A stretch of 64,000 bases of DNA, from NCBI RefSeq assembly GCF_038050405.1, contig NZ_CP150901.1, positions 1,860,001 through 1,924,000 on the forward strand, read 5' to 3'. The notes under the pieces are model-generated. The model was not told the DNA's origin. It did no database searches and saw only the letters and a list, made by a program, of their open reading frames with translations. Below are positions 7,802 to 58,568 of this stretch, piece by piece (the first letter of the stretch is position 1; each line of letters begins with the position of its first letter). Origin of the DNA: Paraburkholderia sp. IMGN_8 (lineage in GTDB: Bacteria; Pseudomonadota; Gammaproteobacteria; Burkholderiales; Burkholderiaceae). A program made the position numbers and the translations under genes.

Positions 7802-7813
7802 AGACTCTGCCTG

Positions 7814-7985: not shown

Positions 7986-8016
7986 AAAACAAAAACCCAC
8001 CGCCGCAGGCAACCAG

Positions 8017-26965: not shown

Positions 26966-27154
26966 GAAACCAAAACCCACCACTGCAGGCAACAGCAATT
27001 CACATGCCCGACTTCAAACAACAACCCACAGGTGTTTTCCATATCGTGCCAGGCTAGGGATAACGCCAGAAGTGCGGTAAATTCCAGAAAAAGGGAATAA
27101 GCGCACGAACAACCGCCGAAACACCGTGCAGTGCCAACCTTGCCCCGTTTTTTC

Positions 27155-31380: not shown

Positions 31381-31510
31381 CGTTACTCTCGATGTTTTTT
31401 TGCCTGTACAGGCAGGGGGTTTGTTGCTGATCGCGGTTTTTTTTCGCTGATCGCGGATTTGGTAAGAGTAGCAGTTATGGGTTGGGGCGTCAGTGAGGGT
31501 GGCAATTGGG

Positions 31511-32390: not shown

Positions 32391-32420
32391 ATTGACCTGC
32401 CATCGCATTCAGGAAAGAAA

Positions 32421-32720
32421 ATGGGAAAGAGGATCTACCTGCATTACCCCGGCAAGGACGAAACCGTCGCGGTCGCCACCGGCTTCAGCTGGGGCGCATT
32501 CCTGCTAGGTTTCGTGTGGGCTTTGTCGAAAAGAATGTGGTTTGCCGCCTTCATCATGTTGTCGGTCAATATCATGTTTTTCTTTACGGACATCTGGGGC
32601 AGTGTGGGCGATCTGATCGGACTGGTGCTGTCGATCCTGTTCGGCATCGCTTGCGGCGTCTATGGCAATCTATGGCACCTCCGGACGCTCGAAAAACGCG
32701 GTTACGTCGTTGTGCGCTGA
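32421..32720 (+). CDS. DUF2628 small membrane protein
   Basis: The 99-residue protein starts MGKRIYLHYPGKDETVAVATGFSW and has the DUF2628 pattern: a short polar start, GFSWGAFLLGFVWALSKRMW, then two hydrophobic helices and a basic tail (HLRTLEKRG). It is probably an inner-membrane protein of unknown function. AGGAAAG just upstream of ATG 32421 is a good ribosome binding site. It begins only about 30 bp past the right end of element R2, so the element may contribute to its 5' untranslated region. Confidence 0.85.
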   Translation: MGKRIYLHYPGKDETVAVATGFSWGAFLLGFVWALSKRMWFAAFIMLSVNIMFFFTDIWGSVGDLIGLVLSILFGIACGVYGNLWHLRTLEKRGYVVVR

Positions 32721-36412: not shown

Positions 36413-36432
36413 AGCTAATTCAAGGAGCCGGC

Positions 36433-37137
36433 ATGGATGCCACGAAAGCTACGCCGCACGACGTCGTGTTTCTGTTCGATTGCGACAACACTTTGCTGGA
36501 CAACGATCATGTGCTGGCGGATTTGCGCGCGCACATGATGCGGGAATTCGGCGAGGAGAACAGCACGCGATATTGGGAAATTTTTGAGGAATTGAGAAGG
36601 GAGCTTGGCTACGCCGATTATTTGGGGGCATTGCAGCGGTATCGGCGGGAGCATCCGCGGGATACGCGATTGCTGTTGATGTCGTCGTTTCTGATTGAGT
36701 ATCCGTTTGCGAATCGGCTGTATCCGGGGGCGTTGGATGCGATTCGGCATCTGGCGACGCGCGGGCCTACTGTGATTTTGTCCGACGGGGACGTCGTGTT
36801 CCAACCTCGGAAGATTGCCCGTTCGGGGTTATGGGAGGAGGTTGAAGGGCGGGTTCTGATTTATATCCATAAGGAGTTGATGCTCGATCAGGTGATGGAG
36901 TGTTATCCGGCTCGACACTATGTGATGGTCGATGACAAGTTGCGGATTCTTACTGCTATGAAGAAGAGCTGGGGGGAGAGGTTGACCACTGTTTTTCCTC
37001 GCCAGGGGCATTATGCTTTTGATCCTAAAGAGGTGGCGGGGAATCCGCCCGCGGATGTGACTGTTGAGAGGGTTGGCGAGCTCGCCGGTGTTGATGTTGA
37101 TATGTTGATGATCAGTGGGACTGTAGGAGGTGCTTAG
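36433..37137 (+). CDS. HAD-family hydrolase
   Basis: The 234-residue protein has haloacid-dehalogenase motif I FLFDCDNTLLDND (the DxD nucleophile pair), motif II VILSDGD and an acidic motif near VMVDDKLRIL, so it is probably a phosphatase. Family members of this shape often dephosphorylate sugar phosphates. It sits 20 bp downstream of the 6-phosphogluconate dehydrogenase gene, so a sugar-phosphate substrate is a fair guess. Codon use changes along the gene: the second half uses more G/T-ending codons than the neighbours. It stops directly at the left edge of element R3. Confidence 0.85.
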   Translation: MDATKATPHDVVFLFDCDNTLLDNDHVLADLRAHMMREFGEENSTRYWEIFEELRRELGYADYLGALQRYRREHPRDTRLLLMSSFLIEYPFANRLYPGALDAIRHLATRGPTVILSDGDVVFQPRKIARSGLWEEVEGRVLIYIHKELMLDQVMECYPARHYVMVDDKLRILTAMKKSWGERLTTVFPRQGHYAFDPKEVAGNPPADVTVERVGELAGVDVDMLMISGTVGGA

Positions 37138-37138
37138 G

Positions 37139-37980
37139 GTTTTCTTTTTGCCTTTGGCGGCGGCATTGTCTGTTTGCCTACGGCGTTGCCTTTCCTTGTT
37201 TTGTTTTTGGTTTATTAGCGTTCCCCCTGTGCGGGGGCACACCTACTTTTCTTTGCCGGCCGCAAAGAAAAGTAGGCAAAAGAAAGCGGCTCAAACCGCT
37301 AGCTTTGAAGCGGGTCCCCTGGCTTGGAGGAGGCAGTGGAGCATCTGGAATCGGTGTTCTCGCGCACTCCGCGCTGGTGACAAGGCAGTCATACTTCCGG
37401 CGGCGCTGCGCGCGCCGTGGCGGTACTTCATCAAACCGCCAGGCGGTTTGGGCGCCCGCGGCTGGTTCGGTGCGGTGGCTCGCACTCGCGTCCCCAACGC
37501 CTCGCCGCGGCGCTAGCGTCTCACTCGAAATGGTGGCTCAATCTCGCACACTTCGGCGCCTCGCCGAGGCGAAGCCGATGGCTCCCGCCGTGCGGAGAAT
37601 TACCCATTGGTTTCCCAGGCAGACCCGTCCGCGACGCACGCAATGCGGCGCGGGATAAATGATGCCGGAAGCGCGTGCGCCCAATCGGTTTTGAGAAGTA
37701 CCGCCACGGCGCGCGTAGCGCCGCCGGAAGTATGACTGCCTTGTCACAAGCGCGGAATGTGCGACAGCACAGATTCCAGATGCTCCACTGCCTCCTCCAA
37801 GCCAGGGGACCCGCTTAAAAGCTAGCGGTGTGAAGCCGCTTTCTTTGCTTACTTTCTTTGCGGCGGCAAAGAAAGTAAGTGCCTGCCCCGCACAGGGGCG
37901 ACGCTAATAAACCAATATCAAATCAAGGAAAGGCCAACGCCGTAAGCGAACAACCAAAGCGCCGCGCAGGCAAAAAAACC
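37139..37980. repeat. Palindromic element R3, arms of mixed subtype
   Basis: The left arm (37139-37440) is subtype A and the right arm (37690-37980) subtype B, the reverse of R2. Left and right share GGGTCCCCTGGCTTGGAGGA, the GACAAGGCAGTCATACTTCC segment and the outer GCCTTTCC modules. The centre is about 250 bp. The element fills the whole gap between the convergent HAD hydrolase and ankyrin genes, starting one base after one stop and ending at the other. Confidence 0.88.
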
Positions 37981-38517
37981 TTAATAACCGATGTCCTTCA
38001 ACCGCGCTTGCGCATCAGCAGCCCCCATCTTGCGAGCCGCTTCAACCGGCGTAACCCCACCCGCATCGCGGGCTCCCGGATCCGCTCCATGCGCGATCAG
38101 CAGATCAACAATCGCCGTGCGATTAAACATAGCAGCAATCATAAGCGCCGTGCGTCCATCCGGCGACGCACCCTCAACATCCGCGCCGTGCGCAAGCAAA
38201 ACCTCAATCACGGCGTCAAAGCCCTTAAAAGCAGCCCCAGCAATGGGCGTCTGCCCATTATCATTGCGCAGGTTCGGATCGGCGCCGCGCTCCAGCAGCA
38301 CCCGCACCGCATCCACGTGTCCGTGATAACTCGCCAGCATCACAAGACTGTCGCCCTTGTCGTTGCGCAAATTCGGCGGTACGCCTTTCTCGATCACCGA
38401 AGCGAGCATCGCAGCATCACCACGTCGTGCGAGTTCAAAGACTTCATGCGCCAACTCGATCAATTCCTGATCGAGCTGCGGCTTGGAAGGAGGGGAAGAA
38501 TCAGCGTGGTCCGTCAA
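37981..38517 (-). CDS. Ankyrin-repeat protein
   Basis: The 178-residue soluble protein consists mostly of about four ankyrin repeats, visible as NDKGDSLVMLASYHGHVDAV, NDNGQTPIAGAAFKGFDAVI, SPDGRTALMIAAMFNRTAIV and DAGGVTPVEAARKMG. Such repeats bind other proteins. I prefer a TTG start at 38517 because AAGGAG lies six bases before it; ATG 38538, upstream of that site, is the alternative. A 41-residue membrane protein gene lies about 100 bp upstream on the same strand. No catalytic domain is present. Confidence 0.85.
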   Translation of the reverse strand: MTDHADSSPPSKPQLDQELIELAHEVFELARRGDAAMLASVIEKGVPPNLRNDKGDSLVMLASYHGHVDAVRVLLERGADPNLRNDNGQTPIAGAAFKGFDAVIEVLLAHGADVEGASPDGRTALMIAAMFNRTAIVDLLIAHGADPGARDAGGVTPVEAARKMGAADAQARLKDIGY

Positions 38518-38613
38518 TGGAATCTCCTTGCAGTGCATCAGGCCGCCTCGGCGGCACTCGGAACATCAGTCAGAATACACATGTCGCGCTGCCAACGCCC
38601 GCGCAGCGGCACG

Positions 38614-38739
38614 CTACAGCTTGCCGAGCAGCAACACCAGCAACCCGAACACGCCGATCGTAACGGCGACACCCGCGCACAACACAACGAGCGAGAGAAC
38701 CAGAATCAAGGGTGTTTTGAGGCGGCTGGGTGTCGACAT
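38614..38739 (-). CDS. Small single-pass membrane protein (41 residues)
   Basis: This short frame encodes MSTPSRLKTPLILVLSLVVL followed by a continuous hydrophobic stretch and a final GKL. One long helix spans about residues 10-38, and the start is basic, so the N-terminus should face the cytoplasm. It is upstream of and co-directional with the ankyrin gene and could anchor or precede it in one transcript. There is no recognised family and no strong ribosome binding site, so it is tentative. Confidence 0.45.
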   Translation of the reverse strand: MSTPSRLKTPLILVLSLVVLCAGVAVTIGVFGLLVLLLGKL

Positions 38740-39276
38740 GATGGCCGTTCAGGTAGAGGGCGAGCAGTTCAGGGCGCGCCAGATGCGGATCGTCGTCGCG
38801 CACATAGCCCAGACAGCTTAAACGTATTCAGGTTAATGTGCGCTCGAAGTCATGCGCGAAACTAGCCCCCAGGTGCCCACTGTCCAACAACATACAGACA
38901 CGCGGCCCAATTGAGCGCATGATCCTTGCACGGTGCCCGGTGTTATCCGCATTCATACGCGCCGATCGAAGCCTGGTTGCCCGCCAGCAATTGCCCGCAT
39001 CACGTCGTCAGCGATGCACCGCTGCACGCCCGTCACGCGATCCAGCTTTATACGATTGCGTCGAACCATGGCGTTCGCTTCCTGTCACATCCCCTGACGA
39101 TTGGCGGCCAGATCCCGTCAAGCCTTACGCAACGGACCTTTGCCGCTACACCTTCGCGATGTCAAGCGCGTGACAAGCCGGTCGGCTTCTATCGTTTTTC
39201 CCCCGCCGGCCAGGGCGCGAACCATCGCAGCAGCACCCGCTAACCTGCCTGACAGTCCTTTTCGAGGAGTGGCGCC
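38740..39276. other. Promoter region upstream of the phosphoketolase operon
   Basis: The 537 bp between the small membrane protein (minus) and phosphoketolase (plus) show no convincing gene; several short frames here look like noise. A GAGGAG site lies directly before the phosphoketolase ATG. Confidence 0.4.
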
Positions 39277-41670
39277 ATGGCTGAAGCAATCCCCCGTCCG
39301 ACCCCGCCCAAAACATTAGAGCCCGACACCTTGCGCAAAATGGATCGCTACTGGCGCGCCTGCAATTACCTGTCGGCCGGCATGATCTATCTGCGCGACA
39401 ATCCGCTCCTGCGCGAGCCGCTCAAACCCGAACACATCAAGAACCGTCTGCTGGGCCATTGGGGTTCGGATCCGGGGCAGAGCTTCCTGCTGGTGCATCT
39501 GAACCGGTTGATCAAGAAGCTCGAGCTGAACGTGATCTACATTGCCGGCCCCGGGCACGGCGCGCCGGCCACGCTGGCCCATTGCTATCTCGAAGGCCAT
39601 TACTCGGAAATCTATCCGGACCGCAGCGAGGACGAGGCCGGCATGCGGCGCTTCTTCCGCCAGTTCTCGTTTCCCGGCGGTATCGGCTCGCATTGCACGC
39701 CCGAAACGCCCGGCTCGATCCATGAGGGCGGCGAACTCGGCTACAGCCTGTCGCACGGCTACGGCGCGGCGTTCGACAACCCCGATCTGATCGTCGCGGT
39801 CATGATCGGCGACGGCGAGGCGGAAACCGGGCCGCTGGCCACCTCGTGGCATTCGAACAAATTCCTCAATCCGATTCGCGACGGCGCGGTGCTGCCGGTC
39901 CTGCATCTGAACGGCTACAAGATCGCCAATCCGACTATCCTCGCGCGCATTCCCCACGAAGAACTCGAAGCTCTGCTGACCGGCTACGGCCACAAGCCGT
40001 ATTTCGTCGAAGGGGACGATCCCGACACGATGCATCAGCAAATGGCCGCGACGCTCGAACAATGCGTCGGCGAAATCCGCGCGATCCAGCAGCAGGCGCG
40101 CGAATCCGGCGATGCCTCGCGGCCGCGCTGGCCGATGATCGTGCTGCGTTCGCCGAAAGGCTGGACTGGTCCGAGGGAAGTCGACGGTCACAAGGTGGAG
40201 GGCTCGTGGCGCGCGCACCAGGTGCCGGTGCTCGACCCCGTCGCCAATAGCAACAGCCTGAAGCTGGTCGAAGGCTGGCTGCGCAGTTATGAGCCGGAGT
40301 CGTTATTCGACGAAACAGGGCGTCTGGTCGAAGAACTGCGCGAACTTGCACCGCAAGGCACGCGCCGCATCAGCGCGAATCCGCACGCGAACGGCGGCTT
40401 GCTGTGCAAGACGCTCGACATGCCGCCGTTTCGCGACTACGCGGTAACGGTGAAAAAGCCCGGCCGCCCGTACACGTCGCCGACCGAGGTGCTCGGCAAG
40501 TTCTTGCGCGATGTCATGCGCAACAACATGACGAACTTCCGCGTGTTCGGCCCCGACGAGACCGCCAGCAACAAACTGACGGCGATCTATGAGGCGTCGG
40601 AGAAAACCTGGCTGGCCGGCACGGAGGCGAGCGACGCTGACGGCGGCGAACTCGCTGTAGATGGCCGCGTGATGGAAATGCTGAGCGAGCACACCTTGGA
40701 AGGCTGGTTCGAAGGCTATGTGCTGACCGGCCGGCACGGACTGTTCGCGACCTACGAAGCGTTCGTCCACGTGATTGATTCGATGTTCAACCAGCATGCC
40801 AAATGGCTGGAAAAGGCCAAGCGCGATCTCGGCTGGCGGCAACCGGTGCCGTCGATCAACCTGCTGATTACGTCGCTGGTGTGGCGCCAGGATCATAACG
40901 GCTTCACGCATCAGGACCCGGGCTTTCTCGACGTCGTGACCAACAAGAGCCCGGACGTGGTGCGCATTTATATGCCGCCGGACGCGAACTGTCTGCTCAG
41001 CGTCGCCGATCATTGTTTGCGCTCGCGCGATTACGTCAACGTGATCGTCGCCGACAAGCAGCCGCATCTGCAATATCTGGACATGGAGGCGGCCGTCACG
41101 CATTGCACCAAGGGCATCGGCATCTGGGATTGGGCGTCGACGGATCAGGGCGCCGAGCCGGATGTGGTGATCGCTTGTGCCGGCGACATCGCGACAATGG
41201 AAGCACTTGCCGCCGTGCAGATTCTGAAAGAGCGCTTTCCTGAGCTGAAGATGCGCTTCGTCAACGTGGTCGATCTATTCCGCCTGATGCCTGAGCACGG
41301 ACATCCGCACGGCCTGTCGGATCGCGACTTCGATTCGTTGTTCACCACCAGCAAGCCGGTGATTTTCAATTTCCATTCTTATGCGTCGCTCGTGCATAAG
41401 CTGACGTACAACCGTACCAATCACGGCAACCTGCATGTGCACGGCTATCACGAGAAGGGCAATATCAACACGCCGCTCGAACTGGCGATCATCAACCAGG
41501 TCGATCGCTTCTCGCTCGCCATCGACGTGATCGATCGCGTGCCGGCTTTGCGCGGCGTCGGCGATCATGCGAAGGAGTGGCTGCGCGGGCAGGTCATCGA
41601 GCATCTTGCGTATGCGCATGCCGAGGGTATCGATAAAGAAGAAATCCGCAACTGGACGTGGAAAGGCTGA
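39277..41670 (+). CDS. xfp: Xylulose-5-phosphate/fructose-6-phosphate phosphoketolase
   Basis: The 797-residue thiamine-diphosphate enzyme splits xylulose 5-phosphate (and often fructose 6-phosphate) with phosphate into acetyl phosphate and an aldose phosphate. Clear family stretches are [31 protein letters not shown], the [20 protein letters not shown] signature and the ThDP motif [20 protein letters not shown]. The C-terminal part has [19 protein letters not shown]. Length is normal for the family. A GAGGAG site precedes ATG 39277. The acetate kinase gene follows 12 bp downstream and uses its product, so the two form one pathway operon. Confidence 0.96.
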
Positions 41671-41682
41671 GCGAGGCTTCGT

Positions 41683-42834
41683 ATGCAGACCGATGAGCGC
41701 ACTCAGGAACCGACGATTCTGGTGTTGAACAGCGGTTCATCGTCGCTGAAGTTCGGGTTGTTTACGCACTCGAGCGATGACGAATCATTGTTGCTGGAGG
41801 GCAGCGCGGAAGGCATCGGCCGCAACGATGGCCGTTTGCGGATCAAGTCGCCGGATGGTCGCGTGCTGGTGGAGCAGGAGCACATGCTGGAGTCGCAAAC
41901 CGACGCGTTGCAAAAGCTCTCCAGCGTGCTTGCGGAGCACAAGCATGCCCGGCCCGCGGCAGTGGGACATCGTGTGGTGCACGGCGGGCCGCATCTGCGG
42001 GCGCATCAACGTTTGACGCCCGAGGTTCGGCAGCGCCTGCAGGACGCGGTGCATTTCGCGCCATTGCATATTCCGCCGGCGCTGGCCTTGATCGACGAGG
42101 CGTCGGCGATTTTCGGCGACGCGCAGCATTTTGCGTGCTTCGATACCGCGTTTCACGCCACGCTGCCGCCGCGCGCGGCGCAGCTTGCGTTGCCGCGCCA
42201 CTATGTGGACGCCGGGGTGATTCGCTACGGTTTTCATGGGCTATCGTATGAATCGCTGGTGACGCGGCTCGGTGCCGATTTGCCGCCGCGCGCGGTGTTT
42301 GCGCATCTGGGGAATGGTTCGAGTTTGTGCGCGTTACAGGACGGTAAATCCGTGGACACGTCGATGGGTTTGACGCCGACCGGCGGCGTGCCGATGGGCA
42401 CTCGCTGTGGCGATCTCGATCCGGGCGTGCTGCTGTATCTGATGCGCGTGGAGAAGCTCGACGCGGATGCGCTCGAAACGCTGCTGAATCGCCAGAGCGG
42501 CCTGGCCGGCTTCGCGGATGGCGAGAGCGATATGCAGGCGCTCGAGCAGCGCTGTGCGGCGCGCGACGTTAATGCGTTGCTGGCGATCGATGCGTTTGCC
42601 ACCGCTGTGCGGAAAACTATTGGCGCTTATGCGGCTTTGCTGGGAGGGGTTGATTTGCTGGTGTTTACTGGCGGGATCGGCGAACACAGTACAGAGATTC
42701 GCAAGCGAGTGTGCGAGGGGCTTTCGTTTCTCGGGCTATCGGAGGGTGACCCTGCGGGGAAAGTGCGTGCGATTCACACTGAGGAGGAAAAGCAGATTGC
42801 CAGGCATTGCCGGAGGCTGTTGCAGGCGGGTTGA
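41683..42834 (+). CDS. ackA: Acetate kinase
   Basis: The 383-residue member of the acetate and butyrate kinase family converts acetyl phosphate and ADP to acetate and ATP. Motifs include ILVLNSGSSSLKFGLF at the start, VGHRVVHGG, FDTAFHATLP, YGFHGLSYESL, FAHLGNGSSLCA, SMGLTPTGGVPMGTRCGDLDPG and FTGGIGEHSTEIR. It is placed after phosphoketolase, so it recovers ATP from acetyl phosphate. No phosphotransacetylase is adjacent, which favours acetate formation over direct acetyl-CoA formation from this operon. Codons near the 3' end are less GC-biased than upstream. Confidence 0.95.
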   Translation: MQTDERTQEPTILVLNSGSSSLKFGLFTHSSDDESLLLEGSAEGIGRNDGRLRIKSPDGRVLVEQEHMLESQTDALQKLSSVLAEHKHARPAAVGHRVVHGGPHLRAHQRLTPEVRQRLQDAVHFAPLHIPPALALIDEASAIFGDAQHFACFDTAFHATLPPRAAQLALPRHYVDAGVIRYGFHGLSYESLVTRLGADLPPRAVFAHLGNGSSLCALQDGKSVDTSMGLTPTGGVPMGTRCGDLDPGVLLYLMRVEKLDADALETLLNRQSGLAGFADGESDMQALEQRCAARDVNALLAIDAFATAVRKTIGAYAALLGGVDLLVFTGGIGEHSTEIRKRVCEGLSFLGLSEGDPAGKVRAIHTEEEKQIARHCRRLLQAG

Positions 42835-42954
42835 CGCTATTTTGCTTTGATCGTAGTTCGGTCGGAGACGCCAGGGAGAAACTCATCCCTCACTGATCCA
42901 GCTCTTTGGCTTCGCTTCCCCGACTACCTGTCAGATCAAGTCCAGGCTAACACA

Positions 42955-43243
42955 GATGAAGTACCGCCACGGCGCGCGCAGCGCCGCCGGAAGTATGACT
43001 GCCTTGTCACCAGCGCCGAATGTGCGAGAACACTGATTCCAGATGCTCCACTGCCTCCTCCAAGCCAGGGGACCCGCTTAAGAATTAGCGGTGTGAAGCC
43101 GCTTTCTTTGCTTACTTTCTTTGCGGCGGCAAAGAAAGTAAGTGCCTGCCCCGCACAGGGGCGACGCTAATAAACCACTAAGAAATCAAGGAAAGGCCAC
43201 CGCCGTAGGCAACCAACCAATGCCGCCGCAAAAGGCAAAAAGA
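42955..43243. repeat. Palindromic element R4, solo right arm
   Basis: Only one subtype-B arm is present. It begins at the inner end (TGAAGTACCGCCACGGCGCG), runs through TCCTCCAAGCCAGGGGACCC, the ACTTTCTTTGC hairpin and GCACAGGGGCGACGCTAATA, and ends at the outer GGCAAAAAG three bases before the dadA-like stop. No left arm or centre is seen in the preceding 120 bp, which look unique. The neighbouring genes converge on it. Confidence 0.88.
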
Positions 43244-43246
43244 CCT

Positions 43247-44458
43247 CTAGTCAACAACACTAGCAACCGATTGCGCCGTAACCGCGGACAACGTCCACCC
43301 AAGATGCCCATGCCCGGTATTATAAAAAACCCCACGCCGCTTCCCGCGGCCCACCTTGGGCAACATGCCAGGCAGCATAGGCCGCAACCCAGCCCATGGA
43401 ATGACCCGTGAGGTCGAAACCTCAGGAAAATACCGTCGAGTCCACTCGACCAGCGGCGCAATCCGATCCGCCCGAATATCCCGATTGAACCCGTTAATCT
43501 CCGCCGTCCCGGCAACTCGAAACCTCTCCGCCCCAAGCCGGCTGGTAACGATCTTCGCGCTATCGTCGAGCAAACTAACCCACGGCGCCCGCTGCTGACT
43601 CACTGCATCATCGAGACAAACAGTGATCGAATACCCCTTCACCGGGTACACATTAACGTGATCCCCCAGCATCGCGGCAAAATCCCGGCTCTTCACGCCG
43701 GCACACACCACAATCCGCTCAAAAGCAAACCGCTGCTGCTCACCAGCAAGATTGACCAGGAGCGTAAACCGCCCATCGGCCGGCTGCTCGATCGCGGTAA
43801 TCTCCGCATCGTAATGAAATTCAACCCCATGCCGTACGCAAGCCTGAGCAAGCCCACGAGTGAACTTGTGAATATCGCCGGTGGAATCAGACGGCGTAAA
43901 AAACCCGCCGTAAAATTCGCCCTGCAGCGTCGGCTCAATCGCATGCAACTCGCTCGCCGTCACAGGGTTGCGGTCAAGCCCGCCCTCGCGCAGCAGTTCG
44001 TTCACCTTGCCGGCGGCATCGAACTCCTTGCGGGTCTTGTAGATGTGCAAAATGCCACGCCGCTCCAGATCGAAGTCGATCCCTTCGCTCTCGGCAATGG
44101 CAAACAGATGCTCCCGCGCCGCGATCGCAAGCCGCACGGTTTCGACGGTGTTGGCGCGGTAGTGCGGAATCTGCCGCAGGAATTCGCCCATCCACGAATA
44201 CTTGTGCCAGGTGGGCATCGGATTGAGCAGCAACGGGGCGTCGCGGGTGAGCATCCAGCGCAAGCCCTTGAGCACAGTGGCCGCGCTGTTCCAGACTTCG
44301 GCATTGCTGGCGGACAACTGCCCGCCGTTGGCGAACGACGTTTCCATCGCCGCATAGCGATGGCGTTCGAACACAGTGACGTGATGGCCGCGCTGCGCCA
44401 GAGCGTGAGCAGTCGTGACGCCGGTAATCCCGGCGCCGATGATGGCGATTCGTGACAT
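43247..44458 (-). CDS. DadA-like FAD amino acid dehydrogenase/oxidase
   Basis: The 403-residue flavoprotein begins MSRIAIIGAGITGVTTAHALA, with the FAD dinucleotide motif GAGITG. It has the DadA-family region SFANGGQLSASNAEVWN and the C-terminal AGLRPMLPGMLPKVG and NTGHGHLGWTLSAV. DadA-type enzymes oxidatively deaminate D-amino acids to keto acids. A tandem glycine riboswitch lies in its leader, so this member may act on glycine, or on a D-amino acid whose metabolism is tied to glycine. It is transcribed alone and ends beside solo arm R4. The fit to DadA is good, but substrate is inference. Confidence 0.9.
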   Translation of the reverse strand: MSRIAIIGAGITGVTTAHALAQRGHHVTVFERHRYAAMETSFANGGQLSASNAEVWNSAATVLKGLRWMLTRDAPLLLNPMPTWHKYSWMGEFLRQIPHYRANTVETVRLAIAAREHLFAIAESEGIDFDLERRGILHIYKTRKEFDAAGKVNELLREGGLDRNPVTASELHAIEPTLQGEFYGGFFTPSDSTGDIHKFTRGLAQACVRHGVEFHYDAEITAIEQPADGRFTLLVNLAGEQQRFAFERIVVCAGVKSRDFAAMLGDHVNVYPVKGYSITVCLDDAVSQQRAPWVSLLDDSAKIVTSRLGAERFRVAGTAEINGFNRDIRADRIAPLVEWTRRYFPEVSTSRVIPWAGLRPMLPGMLPKVGRGKRRGVFYNTGHGHLGWTLSAVTAQSVASVVD

Positions 44459-44523
44459 GACATGGTCCAGAGTAAATTGAGCATCACCGGTGTCGATTTC
44501 CTGTCGAAACCGGCGTTGATGCC

Positions 44524-44722
44524 CCATCTGTCCATGTACCTGAGAGTTTCATCCCGTCAGCACGCATGCAGGTTGCAAGCGGTGTGCAGGATTCCCCTTC
44601 GGTGGGCGCGCACGGCGCCGCTCTCCAGATGTTCCAGCTGCGCGGTCCTTTTTGCCTGAGAGTTTCCGGGGCGGTTGCTCCGTCGGCGTCGTCACAAACG
44701 TCTGACGATCTCTCCCGCGCTG
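44524..44722 (-). promoter_or_regulatory. Tandem glycine riboswitch upstream of the dadA-like gene
   Basis: On the minus strand, aptamer I runs from GCGGGAGAG (44722) to AACTCTCAGGCAAAAAGGAC (about 44645). Aptamer II runs from CTGGAGAGCGGCG through CACCGAAGGGG to AACTCTCAGGTACATGGACA and GATGGGG (44524). The repeated GGAGAG..ACTCTCAGG..GGAC pattern is the known signature of cooperative glycine riboswitches. About 65 bases separate it from the start codon. They include a possible hairpin pairing GCATCA with TGATGC (44480-44525) that could be the expression platform. In most organisms glycine turns such genes on. Confidence 0.9.
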
Positions 44723-45019
44723 CATTGCAGAACGACACGACAATACCGCCCAAAAATTATCGCCGCAAGTGTTTCCTGCGATGCACCGCGCAATCGGTGT
44801 TCTGAAGATTCGTGCTTAAGGCCGTTCTTTGGCGGCCAGCGCTCGTCGCTCGTCGCTCGTCTATCGCGACACGACGCAAACGGAGACCCACGCGTTCGGC
44901 GATATGAATGGCATTCAACTGCCGATGCGGATTATTCAAGCCCGGGTCCAAGCGTGGGTCCGTGGCATAAGTTATATTTGGCCGCATTGCCTTCGTACAT
45001 TTTCCCTGAGGAGTTTGCC

Positions 45020-45652
45020 GTGCCCGCTGCCACAACGCTGCTTGCCTTCGCCCTGGTTTCGCTCGGCATGGTGCTCACGCCTGGGCCGAACATGATCTAT
45101 CTGATCTCGCGTTCGCTCTGCCAGGGGCGGCGTGCGGGGCTTGTATCGCTTGGTGGTGTCGCGCTCGGCTTCGTGTTCTACATGTTCTGCGCCGCCTTCG
45201 GCATTACCGCGCTGCTGCTGACGGTGCCTTATGCGTATGACGCGTTGCGTTTCTGCGGTGCGCTCTACCTGCTGTATCTGGCGTGGCAGGCGGTCAAACC
45301 CGGCGGACGCTCGCCGTTCCAGGTGCGCGATCTGCCGCACGACAGCCGCCGCAAACTGTTCACGATGGGACTCGTGACGAACCTCGCGAATCCGAAGATC
45401 GCGGTGATGTATCTGTCGCTGCTGCCGCAATTCATTTCGCCGGGGCACGGCAGCGTGCTGGCGCAGTCGATCGCGCTCGGCTGCGTGCAGATCGTGGTGA
45501 GCGTCACCGTCAATGCGTTGATTGCCAGCATGGCCGGTTCGATTGCCGGGTTTCTCGCCGGACGGCCGGTCTGGCTGCTGGTGCAACGCTGGTTGATGGG
45601 CACCGTGCTCGCCGGATTGGCGGTACGGATCGCGCTCGATTCGCGCCGTTGA
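45020..45652 (+). CDS. LysE-family amino acid exporter
   Basis: The 210-residue membrane protein has about six hydrophobic segments and the LysE/RhtB signatures: MVLTPGPNMIYLISRSL after the first helix, GLVSLGGVALGF, and FTMGLVTNLANPKIAVMYLSLLPQF. Members export amino acids or related small molecules by exchange with protons. GTG 45020 is preceded by GAGGAG seven bases upstream and gives the normal N-terminus. It is divergent from the glycine-riboswitch-controlled oxidase, so export of glycine or another amino acid is possible, but nothing in the sequence shows it. Confidence 0.88.
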   Translation: MPAATTLLAFALVSLGMVLTPGPNMIYLISRSLCQGRRAGLVSLGGVALGFVFYMFCAAFGITALLLTVPYAYDALRFCGALYLLYLAWQAVKPGGRSPFQVRDLPHDSRRKLFTMGLVTNLANPKIAVMYLSLLPQFISPGHGSVLAQSIALGCVQIVVSVTVNALIASMAGSIAGFLAGRPVWLLVQRWLMGTVLAGLAVRIALDSRR

Positions 45653-45826
45653 ATGCCTAACGGCGATCAGCTGGGAAGGTAAGCCGCGCCCGGCATTCGT
45701 CGCATTGAAAAGCAGGGCTTGAACATGTCCGGCTTTCCTATCGACAACCCTTTTCTCGAGATCGCCAGTGCGGAAGGCACTTTCAAATATTCGAAAACGG
45801 CCTGAAAGCAAACCGCTGGTGCTTTC

Positions 45827-46354
45827 TCAAAGCGCTTTGTACATGATCGTGGCCGAATCGAGCCGCTCTTTGATTGTGTCGCGGCAAAAGCCCGGAATCA
45901 CGCCGACCGTCTGATAACCCAGCGATGCATATAAAGGCTCGGCCTTGTCGCCGGTGCGCGTATCGAGCGTGAGCAGACTGCGCTTCAACTGGCTTGCGCG
46001 GGTTTCGAGTTCCGTCAGCAGCGCCTTCGCGATCCCCTGGCGGCGGAACTCGGGATGGACCAGCAGCTTGCGCACTTCGGCACGATGGCGCTGATTCGGC
46101 ATCGTGTCGTAGTCGAGTTGCACTGTGCCGGCGATGCGGTCTTTGCAGCGTGCCACCAGCAGCACGAGCGAACCGGCTCGCAGCGATGGCAGCACCTTGC
46201 CGGTCCAGAACGCCTCGCTTTCCTCGACCGTGCACGGCAGCACGAAACCGATGCTGGCCCCGTCATGAACACAGGCATGCAGTAGTGCGCCGAGTTCGTG
46301 GTGATGGCGAACCAGATCGTCGGCGGAGAAGGTCGTTAGGGTGGTTGCAGTCAT
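45827..46354 (-). CDS. GNAT-family N-acetyltransferase
   Basis: The 175-residue protein is a typical GNAT fold. The core is IAGTVQLDYDT, EVRKLLVHPEFRRQGIAKALL (the acetyl-CoA pyrophosphate loop RRQGIA) and LLTLDTRTGDKAEPLYASLGYQTVG. The substrate is unknown. It lies six bases downstream of the XRE-cupin regulator gene on the same strand, so the two are co-transcribed and the acetyltransferase probably modifies or responds to the ligand sensed by the regulator. Such pairs can act in amino acid, polyamine or toxin acetylation. Confidence 0.9.
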   Translation of the reverse strand: MTATTLTTFSADDLVRHHHELGALLHACVHDGASIGFVLPCTVEESEAFWTGKVLPSLRAGSLVLLVARCKDRIAGTVQLDYDTMPNQRHRAEVRKLLVHPEFRRQGIAKALLTELETRASQLKRSLLTLDTRTGDKAEPLYASLGYQTVGVIPGFCRDTIKERLDSATIMYKAL

Positions 46355-46360
46355 GCTGGC

Positions 46361-46933
46361 TCACACGATGAAAAGGATGTAGCGGGCGGCGCTGTGCGCG
46401 GGAGTCACGAAAGCGCTGGGGCCGAACAGCTGGTAACGCAGGCAGTCGCCGGCTTGCAGGTCGTGGCTTTGCCCATCGACGGTGATCTGCAATTGCCCTT
46501 CGAGCAGGATCAGGTGATGTTCGAGGCCCGGTCTCGGCGACGCGTCGTAGGTGATGCGCGCACCCGCGTCGAGTTCGCACTCGAGCGCTTCGCCGCTTAG
46601 CGCTTGCGCCGGCGGCGACACCGAGCGCCGCCGGAAGCCGACGCTGGCGTCGGTCCAAACCGGCTGCGCGTTGCGCGGCACCAACGGCGCGAAATCCTCT
46701 TCGACCATGTGCATCAGGCGCGACATGGGCAATCCGTACGCGACGCAGAGCTTGCCCAGCACGCTTGCGGTGGGGCTCACGGCGGCGTTTTCGAGGCGCG
46801 ATAAGGTTGCGCGGCTGACGTTGCTGAGTTTCGCCAGATCGTCGAGCGACCAGTTGCGCTCGGCACGCAGCGCTCGCAGACGCTGGGCGATGCGACGGTC
46901 GATAGCGTTGTCATCGGGGATCGGATTTTCCAT
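46361..46933 (-). CDS. XRE-family regulator with cupin domain
   Basis: The 190-residue protein has an N-terminal helix-turn-helix (about 12-65, RAERNWSLDDLAKLSNVSRA, then LSRLENAAVSPTASVLGKLC) and a C-terminal cupin barrel (about 105-185, HHLILLEGQLQITVDGQSHD, then LQAGDCLRYQLFGP). This architecture is that of PuuR/SutR-like repressors, where the cupin binds a small ligand. It shares an operon with the acetyltransferase. A perfect inverted repeat overlaps its start codon, so it is probably autoregulated. ATG 46933 is the only start that places the HTH normally. Confidence 0.9.
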   Translation of the reverse strand: MENPIPDDNAIDRRIAQRLRALRAERNWSLDDLAKLSNVSRATLSRLENAAVSPTASVLGKLCVAYGLPMSRLMHMVEEDFAPLVPRNAQPVWTDASVGFRRRSVSPPAQALSGEALECELDAGARITYDASPRPGLEHHLILLEGQLQITVDGQSHDLQAGDCLRYQLFGPSAFVTPAHSAARYILFIV

Positions 46934-46960
46934 ATTCGGGAAATTATCTCGAATATGGAA
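46928..46960. promoter_or_regulatory. Likely autoregulatory operator, 11-bp inverted repeat
   Basis: TTCCATATTCG (46928-46938) and CGAATATGGAA (46950-46960) form a perfect inverted repeat with an 11-base spacer, a centre-to-centre distance of about two helical turns. The left half covers the start codon of the XRE-cupin gene. The AT-rich palindrome stands out from the local GC-rich sequence and fits a site for a dimeric HTH repressor. Confidence 0.65.
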
Positions 46961-46980
46961 ATTCGTCAATGAGACAAAAT

Positions 46981-47220
46981 TCACGGACTCGCGGTCGGAG
47001 GGTTGCTCAGGCCGACGGGTTTCTCGGGCCCGGGCACACAGGCATGCCGCTTGTGCCGACAGGCCTCAGCGTACGCGTTGAGCAGATAAGCGCCTCGTCC
47101 ACAAGGGAGATGGCGCTCGAGCGCGGGGACTGACTGACGGCGGAAACGCCATGGAGAGCGGGTCGCTGTGGTGGTCCGCGTCGTGTCATTCGCAGCGGGC
47201 TGCTGCGGAGATTCGTACAC
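46981..47220 (-). CDS. Possible small protein of unknown function (79 residues)
   Basis: An open frame starting MYESPQQPAANDTTRTTT, with GC-rich third positions, lies upstream of the XRE-cupin gene on the same strand. It has a cysteine/histidine-containing C-terminal part (RHLPCGRGAYLL, ACRHKRHACVPGPEKP). No family is recognised and no ribosome binding site is clear, so it may be chance. Confidence 0.25.
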   Translation of the reverse strand: MYESPQQPAANDTTRTTTATRSPWRFRRQSVPALERHLPCGRGAYLLNAYAEACRHKRHACVPGPEKPVGLSNPPTASP

Positions 47221-47334
47221 AGCGGGCGGCTGGGCCGTTTATCATAGAGCTCACAAACTAAAAACGCCGCCCGGCCATGCGACGGTATGCAAGTCGACCC
47301 ACGCGAGCCGGCGGCACCTGCCGCGACATCATCT

Positions 47335-48039
47335 ATGAACTCCACGCCTGACGCTTTTTCCCGCCCGTCCATCCGCGCTCTAACGCAACTCGAAGGGCGC
47401 GTGCTTGGCGTGCTGGTCGAGAAACAGCACACCGTGCCGGACAGTTATCCGCTTTCGCTCAACGCGCTGACCTTGGGCTGCAACCAGAAAACCGGCCGCG
47501 CGCCGGTGATGAGTGCTACTGAAGCTGAAGTGTTGACGGCCATCGACGGCTTGAAACGTCTGAGCCTGGTGCTGGAGGGCAGCAGTAGCCGCGTGCCGCG
47601 GTTCGAGCACAACATGAATCGTGTGTTTGGGTTGCCGGGCCAGTCGGCTGCTTTGCTTACCACTTTGCTGTTGCGCGGCCCTCAGACTGCGGCCGAGTTG
47701 CGGTTGAATAGCGCGCGCTTGCATGGTTTTGCGGACATCTCATCGGTTGAGGCGTTTCTCGACGAACTCGCTGTCGGTGAACCACCGCGAGTGGTGAAGC
47801 TTGCCCGTACGCCGGGCGAGCGGGAGAACCGCTGGATGCATTTGTTGTGCGGCGAGGTCAGCGCTGGTGATCTTGCCCAACCGGGCGGGGATGACGATCT
47901 TGTGCCGTTGTCGGCGTTCGAAGCTGTTAGAGCCGAGCAGAAGAGGCTCGCAGAGGAGGTGAGTCGACTTCAGGTAGTGGTTCGGCGGATGGCCGCCGAA
48001 TTGGGGATTCGGATTGATGATATCGAGGGGTTGGTGTAA
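47335..48039 (+). CDS. YceH/UPF0502 (DUF480) family protein
   Basis: The 234-residue protein is a DUF480 member with two tandem winged-helix domains. Family segments are LEGRVLGVLVEKQHTVPDSY, LGCNQKTGRAPVM, AALLTTLLLRGPQTAAELR and ENRWMHLLCGE. A C-terminal helix (about 200-230) looks like a short coiled coil. The function is unknown; the winged helices suggest nucleic acid or protein binding. The start is taken at MNSTPD (47335), which agrees with Burkholderia homologues as I recall them; ATG 47287 would add 16 residues. It ends just before element R5. Confidence 0.88.
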   Translation: MNSTPDAFSRPSIRALTQLEGRVLGVLVEKQHTVPDSYPLSLNALTLGCNQKTGRAPVMSATEAEVLTAIDGLKRLSLVLEGSSSRVPRFEHNMNRVFGLPGQSAALLTTLLLRGPQTAAELRLNSARLHGFADISSVEAFLDELAVGEPPRVVKLARTPGERENRWMHLLCGEVSAGDLAQPGGDDDLVPLSAFEAVRAEQKRLAEEVSRLQVVVRRMAAELGIRIDDIEGLV

Positions 48040-48065
48040 ATCGCTTGCGGCGGTGGGCTTTGTTT

Positions 48066-49085
48066 GATTTTTTTTGCCTACGCGGCGCTTATGTCTGTTT
48101 GCCCGCGGCGTTGGCCTTTCCTTGATTTGATATTGGTTTATTAGCGTCGCCCCTGTGCGGGGCAGGCACTTACTTTCTTTGCCGCCGCAAAGAAAGTAAG
48201 CAAAGAAAGCGGCTTCACACCGCTAATTCTTAAGCGGGTCCCCTGGCTTGGAGGAGATAGTGGAGCATCTGGAATCGGTGTTCTCGCACACTCCGCGCTA
48301 GTGACAAGGCAGTCATACTTCCGGCGGCGCAGCGCGCGCCGTAGCGGTACTTCTCAACACCAACTGGGGGGGAGCGCCTCTGGCATCATCCTTCCCGCCC
48401 CGCACTGCGTGTTCGCCGGGACGGTCTGCCAGGGAGACCAGGCGCTTCGTTTTCGTTTGTTGGGAGCCATCGGCTGCGCCTCGGCGAGGTGACTAAGTTT
48501 GGGTGTGCGGCCTACCATGCTGGGCGAAACGTCGGCGCTGACACTAGGGGGGCGGTGTTTCGACGTAACACCGAACACTGAAACTGGCAGGCGGTATTGT
48601 GAAGTAACGCCGAACACCGAAACTGGCGGGCGATATTGTGAAGTAACGCCGAACACCGAAACTGGTGGGCGATATTGTGAAGTAACGCCGGGTGCCGAAA
48701 CCAACGGGCAGTTTGATGAAGCACCGCCACGGCGCGCGCAGCGCCGCCGGAAGTATGACTGCCTTGTCACTCACGCGGAGTGCGCGAGAACACCGATTCC
48801 AGATGCTCCACTACCTCCTCCAAGCCAGGGGACCCGCTTAAGAGTTAGCGGTGTGAAGCCGCTTTCTTTGCTTACTTTCTTTGCGGCGGCAAAGAAAGTA
48901 AGTGCCTGCCCCGCACAGGGGCGACGCTAATAGACCACTAACAAATCAAGGAAAGGCCAACGCCGTAAGCGAACAACCAAAGCGCCGAGCAGGCAAACAG
49001 CACGGGGGGAAACGCTAATAAACCAATAAGAAAAGGCCACTGCCGTAAGGCAAACAACCATAGCGCCGCGCAGGCAAAAAAATCA
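48066..49085. repeat. Palindromic element R5, full length with 39-bp tandem repeats
   Basis: This is the clearest full member. The left arm (48066-48360) and right arm (48715-49005) are both subtype B and mirror one another from the outer T-tract and GCCTTTCCTTG to the inner TCCGGCGGCGC. The outer module is repeated at the right (49005-49085), with a GGGGGGAAACGCTAATAAACC core fragment. The centre contains four 39-bp direct repeats. It fills the gap between convergent yceH and mipA-like genes. Long frames on both strands through it are by-products of the symmetry. Confidence 0.9.
48551..48706. repeat. Four 39-bp tandem repeats in the centre of R5
   Basis: Units begin at 48551, 48590, 48629 and 48668, each of the form GGCGATATTGTGAAGTAACG followed by CCGAACACCGAAACTGGCG. 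Units two and three differ at few positions; the outer ones are more diverged. A fifth partial unit runs into the right arm. Two units of the same repeat occur in R1 (26564-26641). The 39-bp period keeps a reading frame open, but no start signal supports translation. Confidence 0.85.
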
Positions 49086-49132
49086 AATAAAAACCCAACA
49101 CCGCAGGTATAAAACCGACCCCGCCGGGAGGC

Positions 49133-49963
49133 CTAAAACCGATAATTAACTGAAGCGAGCGTATTGAGCTCAAACTTCCGTTCAGTAATAGGACTATTAG
49201 CGGCGTTATGCTCCAAACGCCCAAACGTCGCCGACACCGACCCAACCCAATGTTTGGAAATATCGTAAGTAACGGCCGCATTCATGTGAATATCCCGCAC
49301 GCCGGCACTGGTGTTATACACCGGCAGCCCCGAAGCGGCGCTTTGCTGACTCGACACGCCAAAGAACGTCCGCGTATAGGTCCCATTCGCCCACGTAAAC
49401 CCAGGCCCAACCGAGAACAACCACCCACCGACCGGCGCGGAAGCGACCACATCGGTGCTCACTGTCGTGCCCTGATGATGCCCGGCAATATCCTGATACA
49501 ACGCGACCGAACCAGTAAACGCCCACACGGTGTAGTCGGCGAATAGCTTGAGCTTGGGGCCGCCGTGCACATCGCCGAGACCGTGCAAACGAGGATCGTC
49601 CGATTCCTTGCGACTCTGGAAGTCGAAACTGAGCGCAGCGCCCAGGTGATAAGCCGGACCGCGCAACACGTTGACGCCAAGCACGTCAGGACCTTGCGAG
49701 AAGATCCGGTCGTCGTAGGAGATATCGAGTGCGGGGAAAGGGAACACGGTCAACTGCCGCGAGCCCGGATACTTGGGCGTCACCACCACGCCGGGTCCGA
49801 GGGCGATCTTCCATTTGCTGTCGGTGCTCGCGTTGGCGTTGGTGTTCGCGCCAGTCGTCGCATCCGCGTTCTGCTCGTCCGCATGCGCAGCGTGTGTCGC
49901 AAGGAGACCGAGAGCAGCAAGCAGCAACGACACCCGAGCCGGTTTGCCAAGCGCGCGCGTCAT
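49133..49963 (-). CDS. MipA/OmpV-family outer-membrane protein
   Basis: The 276-residue protein has a Sec signal peptide (MTRALGKPARVSLLLAALGL, ending AHA before DEQ). A beta-barrel-like domain follows, with the family motifs KWKIALGPGVVVTPKYPGS, FPALDISYDDRIF, LGAALSFDFQSRKESDD and the end LNTLASVNYRF with terminal phenylalanine. MipA/OmpV proteins sit in the outer membrane; MipA in E. coli links murein enzymes. Its start overlaps the stop of the esterase gene by four bases (ATGA), so it is the last gene of a three-gene operon with DUF4118 and esterase genes. Confidence 0.87.
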   Translation of the reverse strand: MTRALGKPARVSLLLAALGLLATHAAHADEQNADATTGANTNANASTDSKWKIALGPGVVVTPKYPGSRQLTVFPFPALDISYDDRIFSQGPDVLGVNVLRGPAYHLGAALSFDFQSRKESDDPRLHGLGDVHGGPKLKLFADYTVWAFTGSVALYQDIAGHHQGTTVSTDVVASAPVGGWLFSVGPGFTWANGTYTRTFFGVSSQQSAASGLPVYNTSAGVRDIHMNAAVTYDISKHWVGSVSATFGRLEHNAANSPITERKFELNTLASVNYRF

Positions 49964-50847
49964 GCCCGCTCCTTGCCGAGCGCCGCGAGCTGCCTCAAAC
50001 GCCGCGCCAATGCCTTCGACACGACCTGCGTCTTCGCGCCGTCGCTATCGCTGTGGGCCACCTCGCTTTCGCGCAAAAACAGCGCGGTTTCGCGCGCGAC
50101 GATCTCTCGCTCGTTGTCCGATGTGATCATGTGATACGAGTCATCCAGCCAGATAGTGCGTAAAAAGGCGGCGCCGATATTCCCGGCGACAAAGCGGGCG
50201 TTGCGTGGGCTCGAGGTTTCATCGTCGATGGCGTGGACGATCAGGCAATCAGTCTTGATATCGCGCACCAACGTGCGCACGTTCGCGGCCAGGCGGCTCG
50301 CTTCGTGCAATGCCGGCAACGAGATCGTCGACGGCCCGACTTCGCTGAAATCGCTGCGCTGCATCGCGCGCGCGATTTTCGCCCTGAGTGCTTCGTTGCG
50401 CAAACCGAACGGCGCTTCCTCGCGATAGCGCCAGCGTTTGCGCATCGGCGTGAAGTACGCCCAGTTCAGCAGAAAGCGATACCAGGGGATCGCCCAGCCG
50501 TCGTAAGAGAGCGTCAGCGACAGCAGCACCACTGCCTGGGCTTGCGGGCGGCGGTGTGCCAGCGCGAGCGCGAGCGCCGCGCCTATCGAAAGGCCGCAGA
50601 TCGAGACACGGGCAAAGCGCGCGGCCAGTGCGTCGTACTCGCGCACGGCGGCGTCGAGCCAGACTTCCATCGCCGCTTCTTCGGAACCGGCGCTGTAGCC
50701 GCTCAGGAGCGGCGCGCTGGTCGTGAAGCCTTCGGCGTTCAGATAGCGCGCAAGGAAACGCAATTCGAGCGGCGAACTGGACAGGCCGTGCAGCATCAGC
50801 ACCGCATGGTCGTCGCCGGGATAAAACAGGCTGCTCGGTTGACTCAC
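49960..50847 (-). CDS. Alpha/beta-hydrolase (carboxylesterase-like)
   Basis: The 295-residue enzyme has the alpha/beta hydrolase fold. It shows HAVLMLHGLSSSPLELRFLA (oxyanion region), the nucleophile elbow ICGLSIGAALAL with Ser in GLSIG, an acidic position in VHAIDDETSSP and the catalytic His in LDDSYHMITSDNER. The arrangement resembles carboxylesterase Est30 and monoacylglycerol lipases, which also keep the late DSYHMIT motif. It is cytoplasmic with no signal sequence. The start is GTG 50847, three bases after the DUF4118 stop. It overlaps mipA-like by four bases. Confidence 0.88.
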   Translation of the reverse strand: MSQPSSLFYPGDDHAVLMLHGLSSSPLELRFLARYLNAEGFTTSAPLLSGYSAGSEEAAMEVWLDAAVREYDALAARFARVSICGLSIGAALALALAHRRPQAQAVVLLSLTLSYDGWAIPWYRFLLNWAYFTPMRKRWRYREEAPFGLRNEALRAKIARAMQRSDFSEVGPSTISLPALHEASRLAANVRTLVRDIKTDCLIVHAIDDETSSPRNARFVAGNIGAAFLRTIWLDDSYHMITSDNEREIVARETALFLRESEVAHSDSDGAKTQVVSKALARRLRQLAALGKERA

Positions 50848-56672: not shown

Positions 56673-56790
56673 GGAGTCTCCGAAACGGAATATGAGCAAT
56701 GCGGGATGCTCAACCCGCTAACGGTAAGGGAGGCATGGGGTGGGGGGCAAATAAGGGTTTGCCGGATTCTTAGCAGGGTTTGAGAAATGG

Positions 56791-57660
56791 GGGTTTTGCC
56801 TGCTCGGCGCTTTTTGGCTGTGTGCCTACGGTGTTGGCCTTTCCTTGATTTGATATTGGTCTATTAGCGTCGCCCCTGTGCGGGGCAGGCACTTACTTTC
56901 TTTGCCCACCAAGTGGACTTCCTTCGGGGCGCCGCCGCAAAGAAAGTAAGCAAAGAAAGCTTCACACCGCTAATTCTTAAGCGGGTCCTCTGGCTTGGAG
57001 GAGGTAGTGGAGCATCTGGAATCTGTGCTCTCGCACATTCCGCGCTTGTGACAAGGCAGTCATACTTCCCGCCTCGCACTGCGTGCTCGCCGGAAGGGTC
57101 TGCCAGGCAAACCAGTGGCTTCGCTTTGGTTCGGTGGGAGCCATCGGCCGCACCTCGGCGAGGGGCTGAAATGTGAATGTGCGGGCCACTTCTCTGAACG
57201 AAACGCAGCTGCGAGTTACGCCGACGGAGCAAAGGCAAGCCGTTACGCTTGAACAACCGCAGGCGCCGGAAGCACCCGAAGGGCTCTACAGTTTTATGAA
57301 GTGCTGCTTCGGTGCGCGTAGCGCCGCCGGTCGCGTCAAGCGAAACGTTGACGCGAAAACGGAGGGCGGTTTTGTGAAGTACCGCATCGGCGCGCGCAGC
57401 GCCGCCGGAAGTATGACTGCCTTGTCACCAGCGCCGAATGTGCGAGAACACTGATTCCAGATGCTCCACTACCTCCTCCAAGCCAGGGGACCCTCTTAAG
57501 AGCTAGCGGTGTGAAGCCGCTTTCTTTGCTTACTTTCTTTGCGGCGGCAAAGAAAGTAAGTGCCTGCCCCGCACAGGGGCGACGCTAATAAACCAATATC
57601 AATTCAAGGAAAGGCCACCGCCGCAGGCACACAGCTAAAAAGCGCCGCGAAGGCAAAAAA
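56791..57660. repeat. Palindromic element R6, full length
   Basis: Left arm 56791-57070 (subtype B with the GTGGACTTCCTTCGGGG insert) and right arm 57370-57660 (subtype B) are inverted. The left arm lacks the middle of AGCGGCTTCACACCGCT (it reads AAGCTTCACACCGC), a small deletion. The inner motif GTGCGCGTAGCGCCGCCGG near 57312 repeats that at 57390. The element lies between two co-directional genes (sfnB-like start and ABC permease stop) and ends three bases from the permease stop. Confidence 0.88.
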
Positions 57661-57662
57661 AC

Positions 57663-58568
57663 CTACCTTATTCCACTAACCACCCGCCTCCGAGCCAACC
57701 CCCGCACTGCGAGTAAACAAACAACCATCACGGTAAGTGACAAAACCGTAGTCACAGTCCCAAGAGCATAAATCACAGGCGTAGTCACCGAAGTGGTGAG
57801 CCCCTGCAACTCAAGTGGCAAAGTATTCTGATCACCAATAGCCTGCGAGGTACGAGCAATCTCATCCCATGAAAGAGTGAACCCGAACATGGCGACGCCA
57901 ACCACCGAAGGTCCGATGATAGGCAGAACAACATGCCGAAAGCTCTGCCACGGCGTGGCGCCCAGGTCCCTTGAAGCTTCCTCATAAGCCGGATTAAACC
58001 GGTTAAAAACAGCGAACATCACCAACAAACCGAAAGGCAACGTCCAGGTGAGATGCGCGCCAAGCGCGGAGGTAAACAGGCCCATCGAAGTGGTATAGCC
58101 ATCGGCGAAAGACTGATACCCCCACGCGGCAGCGAGATACTTGACACCGTTATCGAGCAACCGGAACGTCAACCCAATCCCAAGCGAAACAATGATCGAG
58201 GGCATGATGAGGCTGGCGACAGACACATAAAACACCGCCGTATCGCCCCGAAAGCGCCTGCGAAAAGCCAACCCCGCAGCAACAGAAAACAGAACAGTGA
58301 GAACAGTGACAGCCAAAGCGAGCCGCACGGATCGCCCAAACGCGGCCCAGATATCGACGTCGCCGACACCGTCGCGCAACACGGCAAACCAGTGCAGAGA
58401 AACACCACGCATCGGAAACGTAAGCCCGCCCTCAGGTCCCTGAAAGGACAGAATAAAAATCGTGATGACCGGTCCATACAAAAACAGCACGAACAACCCG
58501 AACAGCAATGCAAGCCAGTAAAAACTCGCCGGGCGATGCTCGCGATGTTTGAGGCGAGTAGCCTGCAT
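57663..58568 (-). CDS. ABC transporter permease, PotC-like
   Basis: The 301-residue inner-membrane permease has six predicted helices. The binding-protein-dependent transport signature is YEEASRDLGATPWQSFRHVVLP, the EAA loop that contacts the ATPase. It matches the PotC/spermidine-putrescine type of importer. Its ATG lies one base after the stop of the partner permease gene, so translation is coupled. The gene ends three bases from element R6. The solute is not determined by the permease. Confidence 0.92.
   Translation of the reverse strand: MQATRLKHREHRPASFYWLALLFGLFVLFLYGPVITIFILSFQGPEGGLTFPMRGVSLHWFAVLRDGVGDVDIWAAFGRSVRLALAVTVLTVLFSVAAGLAFRRRFRGDTAVFYVSVASLIMPSIIVSLGIGLTFRLLDNGVKYLAAAWGYQSFADGYTTSMGLFTSALGAHLTWTLPFGLLVMFAVFNRFNPAYEEASRDLGATPWQSFRHVVLPIIGPSVVGVAMFGFTLSWDEIARTSQAIGDQNTLPLELQGLTTSVTTPVIYALGTVTTVLSLTVMVVCLLAVRGLARRRVVSGIR

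Follow-up and report, generated by a model that had tools for sequence, protein, structure and literature searches.

The 64-kb window analysed here (the whole stretch under study, positions 1860001-1924000 on contig C2 of a 9.11-Mb, two-contig genome) carries seven related intergenic places that we regard as probable members of an unusually long, REP/BIME-like palindrome family, undescribed as far as we searched, which acts as a landing pad for insertion sequences (IS). Most copies of IS481, of IS110 and of the genome's own IS4-type element sit in the arm of this palindrome, each IS type at its own fixed position, and half of the IS30 copies examined in other genomes do likewise. The element itself is a composite intergenic palindrome in which hairpins follow one another in fixed order along each of two inverted arms, with a variable centre between them.

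The seven places had been listed by an earlier sequence-only reading, and repeat search and arm profile bore out all of them (Table 1). Five are complete, with two inverted arms of ~300 bp, while 42954-43244 proved to be a lone arm and 7806-7987 a short palindrome. A whole element spans ~0.75-1.0 kb and has no evident coding content. The order of parts proposed for the arm was likewise recovered (outer module, C4-TGTGC-G4 hairpin, CTTACTTTCTTTGC hairpin, AGCGG/CCGCT hairpin, GGCTTGGAGGAG block, inner GC-rich block), with 258-base stretches of opposite arms 94% complementary in the focal copy by repeat search. By arm profile, copies 25995 and 48067 each bear one more outer module on one side, and in three window arms the main hairpin loop contains a 27-nt insert. 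This insert, which forms a small hairpin of its own, lies at ~31624-31650, in the left arm of 56790-57664 and in the right arm of 25995-26966.

Table 1. Elements of the palindrome family in the window, with landmarks of the focal copy.
Feature	Position	Strand	Basis or remark
Short palindrome made of two outer modules	7806-7987	.	arm profile, fold
Two-armed element with extra outer module at left	25995-26966	.	arm profile
Two-armed element, genes divergent around it	31508-32392	.	arm profile, gene calls
Two-armed element, differing hairpin alleles in its arms	37143-37982	.	arm profile
Single arm	42954-43244	-	arm profile; arm at same site in 4/8 relatives with both flanks aligned
Focal two-armed element	48067-49083	.	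repeat search, sequence, arm profile
Focal left arm, outer to inner	48067-48365	+	arm profile 6-304, 355 bits
Main hairpin CTTACTTTCTTTGC/GCAAAGAAAGTAAG	48169-48200	+	sequence, fold, co-variation
IS481 insertion-site counterpart, loop CCGCCG	48182-48187	+	occupied in other copies, empty here
IS110 insertion-point counterpart	48196-48197	+	six own IS110 copies occupy allele with one extra A
IS30 insertion-point counterpart (2-bp GC)	48212-48213	+	
IS4/Tn5-type 9-bp target counterpart, GGCTTGGAG	48245-48253	+	
Focal variable centre	48366-48705	.	39-nt unit repeated in tandem about four times, starting near 48551 (repeat search, sequence)
Focal right arm	48706-49002	-	arm profile 7-304, 350 bits
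Focal extra outer module	49001-49083	-	arm profile 7-96
Two-armed element	56790-57664	.	arm profile; relative G018 also holds two arms at site

The elements had been called strictly intergenic, which holds in general, except that two mechanical open reading frames with GTG starts, 31060-31611 (-) and 32289-32720 (+), enter element 31508-32392. Since the element does not reach the Pfam domains of these frames (residues 92-179 and 62-134), both genes likely start later. The contact with stop codons was upheld for the genes ending at 37137, 37981, 43247 and 57663, ranging from a 5-base gap to a 2-base overlap. Two neighbours of the elements were also recorded, namely a glycine riboswitch at 44633-44727 (-, 64.8 bits) upstream of a DAO-family oxidoreductase gene (43247-44527), and an ankyrin-repeat gene (37981-38538) that adjoins an element and aligns at the DNA level in one relative (G118) alone among nine.

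The hairpins fold strongly, as in 7814-7956 (-79.9 kcal/mol, z -10.2), and their stems co-vary. Among 154 distinct unsplit hairpins, drawn from our own stretches and from other fetched loci and counted without regard to descent, the 5' and 3' variants of the main stem were concordant in 153 (114 plain, 31 T/A and 8 C/G, with 1 mismatch), a second pair was concordant in all 154 (120 T-A, 34 C-G), and in every one the 3' stem was followed by the motif a third time. Co-variation was counted by letter pattern, since MAFFT had put a stem gap wrongly in the alignment; the pattern accepts listed stem letters only, and hairpins with other changes fall outside the count. Gene conversion among copies could partly account for the concordance.

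Scanning the genome, the genus and the family showed copies genome-wide and genus-wide, and thus a family not confined to the window. An arm 15-mer, with one mismatch allowed, gave 164 + 163 = 327 matches in the genome of the window against 0 + 2 for a reversed control, which suggests ~160 two-armed elements, other alleles lying outside this count. Within the genus, the same motif was present in 106 of the 144 genomes scanned (ours among them) and missing from 38, with counts from 0 to 557 (largest in G108 with 557, our genome with 327, G011 with 239 and G110 with 186); these are undercounts, as three genomes (G010, G139, G143) score zero yet carry arms at 82-86% identity. Across sampled Burkholderiaceae, the arm query matched in 130 of 299 genomes (own included) and 9 of 25 genera, frequently by the hairpin core alone, the best two candidates per genome being scored for presence, not copy number. 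An exact arm 35-mer has P. elongata, P. polaris and P. solitsugae among its named holders and occurs at 69 loci. Plasmid records from Paraburkholderia (9), Burkholderia (7) and Caballeronia (5) matched in part, none spanning 80% of the element, and phage records yielded no element match. A strong recent burst of copies was ruled out, with 52 own arms averaging 88% identity among themselves and 85% to 55 P. elongata arms, most of the latter from loci picked by the exact 35-mer.

The earlier reading had recognised no named family, and this has stood so far, both by Rfam and in the literature searched. At gathering score Rfam matched none of the elements, its sole match in the window being the glycine riboswitch, and the literature searched, with subscription papers mostly outside the search, gave no account of this repeat family. 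Judging by title, none of the 14 papers listed for the motif deals with bacterial repeats, and in their main text two surveys (PMC12306157, PMC2267715) do not mention Burkholderia.

That no transposase is present is true inside the window and untrue of the family, as elsewhere several IS families target the arms, each at a fixed position. Nine inserts (one partial) were found in split arms, and they belong to four families that scored above the NCBIfam cut-off: IS481, IS110, IS4 and IS30. Searching the genome for each (best 40 of 42-73 candidates scored per search), we found that all 8 of the full IS481 copies listed occupy the main hairpin loop, in either orientation and with a 6-bp duplication; one of the genome's IS481 copies (L186) lies between two outer halves, and a 107-nt IS481 remnant is outside the count. 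All six full IS110 copies listed share a single insertion point and orientation, in each case in the longer hairpin allele, and a 280-nt piece of IS110 adjoins a truncated arm. Eight full copies of the IS4/Tn5-type element were listed, of which seven sit at GGCTTGGAG with a 9-bp duplication and the eighth occupies a different small hairpin; an arm also contains a partial copy, itself split, and two short matches are outside the count. IS30 is represented by one full own copy in an arm, known from the split-arm inserts and not from a genome-wide tally. The arms make up 2.2% of the 800 kb scanned, so that 21 of 22 copies would fall in arms by chance with a probability of ~5e-34 if copies were independent. 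Separately, six IS481 copies (L244, L251, L253, L186, L266, L267) have outer arm halves on both sides, as if the interior of the element had been lost.

The same docking recurs in other genomes, as seen with a 520-nt query of four IS left ends against 25 genomes (in G005, G037, G078 and G122 scoring covered the best 25 of 30-56 candidates and may have missed copies). IS481 left ends of at least 90 nt adjoin the hairpin loop in 50 of 51 examined, over ten genomes and at 72-98% identity (52 were listed, G074:C108 being left out), and the one exception (L240 in G005) is located elsewhere. Within this set, the stem is recognisable at L255 and the outer arm is not, and some right ends run off contigs. 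All four IS110 copies examined (6 listed) are in arms. Relatives of the IS4-type element are in arms in 2/2 cases at 88% identity or above and in 0/6 below, the IS end being extrapolated in three of these six. IS30 was in arms in 5 of 10 copies examined (G123 2/2, G005 3/7, G074 0/1) from 18 long matches listed, with six G037 copies and the ~26-32 nt matches to the IS30 tip alone left out. One IS4-type copy (L278, in G011) lies in a hairpin that looks terminator-like by eye, suggesting a wider taste for hairpins. No split arms appeared in P. elongata, P. polaris and the other fetched loci, a hardly informative result given drafts and loci mostly chosen by an intact 35-mer.

IS110 probably docks through a guide RNA, to judge from a predicted structure in its own non-coding region. 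Upstream of tnp, one predicted stem-loop holds TGCCTA and AGAAAAG, which match one target half each, on opposite strands, beside the insertion point. This joint two-sided match was equalled at 6 of 5000 random window sites, in a test made after the fact and with short segments, and a guide search by 6-mer matches alone gave nothing unusual. The candidate guide segments are unchanged in three G123 relatives, which adds little, because the whole region is conserved there too. Guide RNAs of IS110 elements are already known as bridge RNA (IS621/IS110) and seekRNA, as described in the accessible text of PMC11208160 and PMC11187229, and the present case is like these in its single exact target and in candidate guide segments upstream of tnp, and differs in that guide function is predicted only.

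The elements are placed mainly behind genes. Gene neighbourhoods were evaluated with a home-made caller over 800 kb chosen partly for element richness (coding fraction ~0.80, some genes missed), which replaced a stricter first caller (0.71-0.72). Of 38 element clusters, 18 were convergent, 16 codirectional and 4 divergent, against 67, 223 and 106 among the 396 remaining gene pairs whose gaps measure 60 bp or more, a convergent excess (18/38 vs 67/396, Fisher p 4.3e-5) with a divergent deficit (p 0.03); codirectional clusters were closer to the 3' end of the upstream gene in 14 of 16. Seven called genes fell fully within element spans, six transposase genes and one 49-codon frame. Along the chromosome, C2 has an element-free stretch of ~140 kb (~1.960-2.100 Mb) beside an element-rich one, an equally large gap arising in 36 of 20000 random placements, and the longest free stretch of the C1 sample was unremarkable (1474/20000).

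Element sites are partly common to relatives and partly private, as seen in a comparison of six window sites (7806 left out) with nine relatives at ~80-88% DNA identity in aligned genes. The focal site (site 48) is armless in all nine, with a flank spacing of 78-187 bp versus 1123-1135 in the window, and by eye at least 7 of the 9 have there a short hairpin that is missing from the window copy. Site 32 is also armless in 9/9, four relatives having 103-365 bp and five ~1 kb of other sequence, and site 37 is armless in all 8 relatives with close flanks. Site 26 is armless in the 2 relatives that align both neighbours, and is not simply empty there, as the neighbours are 1.4 and 3.2 kb apart. At site 57 one relative (G018) has two arms and another (G074) none, with 190 bp and a possible scar, the remaining seven relatives being without a flank. 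Orthologous sites are thus not always occupied, and of the suggestion that these are non-autonomous mobile elements, lineage-specific gain or loss is supported and a target duplication was not seen.

We weighed this landing-pad reading against other accounts of the same observations; the earlier reading had named a boundary, a terminator, an RNase III substrate, a protein-binding site and a non-autonomous mobile element, with no choice among them. A possible but rather doubtful account holds that the palindrome is a bidirectional 3'-end element, selected for terminating transcription or processing RNA at convergent genes, with IS docking as a side effect. Convergent and 3' placement, the strong folds and the position of the focal copy where relatives have their short hairpin would fit this, as would 36 terminator-like sites in 36000-50000 against 15.4 (sd 4.7) in shuffles, among which an AGCGG/CCGCT hairpin with a T-rich tail appears in all five arms of that stretch. 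The same placement, however, is predicted by a selfish repeat tolerated at 3' ends, and the palindrome has its outer T-run before it and its A-run after it, the reverse of an intrinsic terminator, while the inner tails are TTCTTTGC-like with no clean T-run, and the numbers of one arm motif swing from none to hundreds within one genus. Still less probable, in our view very much so, is a protein-binding site that organises the chromosome: placement is uneven, with the long free stretch in the C2 sample, but the C1 sample has no unusual gap, and the genus includes the 38 genomes without the arm motif, though the motif undercounts.

A fold-back or MITE-like non-autonomous transposon, moved by a transposase in trans, seems unlikely to us. 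It would fit the inverted ends (GGTTTTTTTGCC/GGCAAAAAAACC or near, in many copies), the dispersal of copies and the element-free sites of relatives, but no target duplication was found over 27 elements, the longest shared flank averaging 4.19 nt versus 4.30 in mismatched pairs (few-base or old decayed duplications would escape this test, and element ends are not base-exact); moreover, the ends of the four docked IS types differ from the element ends, and arms are scarcely more alike within an element (identity 0.897, 18 pairs) than between elements (0.883 over all own arm pairs). Eukaryotic fold-back transposons consist of a variable middle between long inverted arms built of sub-repeats, and the present arms are likewise inverted around a variable centre, though here with no target duplication seen. 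The small repeats Correia/NEMIS, ERIC and RUP measure roughly 100-200 bp and are, like the present element, non-coding, dispersed, palindromic and intergenic; ours is longer, and again a target duplication was not seen. We find it extremely improbable, more so than any other account, that these are REP elements served by a RAYT (TnpA-REP), given that the genome has one weak PF01797 match (28.5 bits), armless in the 3.3 kb around it, and that the elements far exceed 20-40 bp, even though they are palindromic, intergenic and 3'-biased, with hundreds of arms in the genome.

The closest known systems are the REP/BIME repeats. According to the available parts of PMC3733652, GTAG- and CGTC-tagged REPs are units of 20-40 bp found mostly between convergent and unidirectional genes; REPs resemble our elements as high-copy intergenic palindromes at gene 3' ends and as IS targets, whereas our arms are ~300 bp with several hairpins, the whole is ~0.75-1.0 kb, and no RAYT link was found. 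REPs are known as targets of IS3, IS110, IS4, IS256 and IS5 (Tobes and Pareja 2006, PMC1525189, in its accessible portions). Common to that portion of their work and ours are IS110 and IS4, and the finding of all or most copies of an IS in one repeat family; here the repeat is another, IS481 and IS30 are not among their five named families, and one arm is the target of several families, each at a different base.

The elements lie mainly behind stop codons, where insertion should harm little, and within the landing-pad reading transposases may recognise the hairpins as DNA palindromes or cruciforms; if so, the family would offer IS safe landing sites scattered over the genome. Short forms like 7806-7987 could have arisen by deletion, when one hairpin recombined with its counterpart in the opposite arm. 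IS docking may be exploitation of the element rather than its function. We further put forward, tentatively and at somewhat less than even chances, a shared platform on which IS481, IS110, IS4/Tn5 and IS30 each target a different base, with the hairpin kept by compensatory change, and which serves as a safe harbour channelling IS away from genes. Different transposition chemistries, one from a family known to be RNA-guided, thus meet in nature on one dispersed DNA target, and such convergence makes both hairpin recognition and the idea of a harmless IS harbour directly testable. The elements also give a large soil and plant-associated genus a repeat family that is undescribed as far as searched, of a kind that can influence assembly, annotation and rearrangement.
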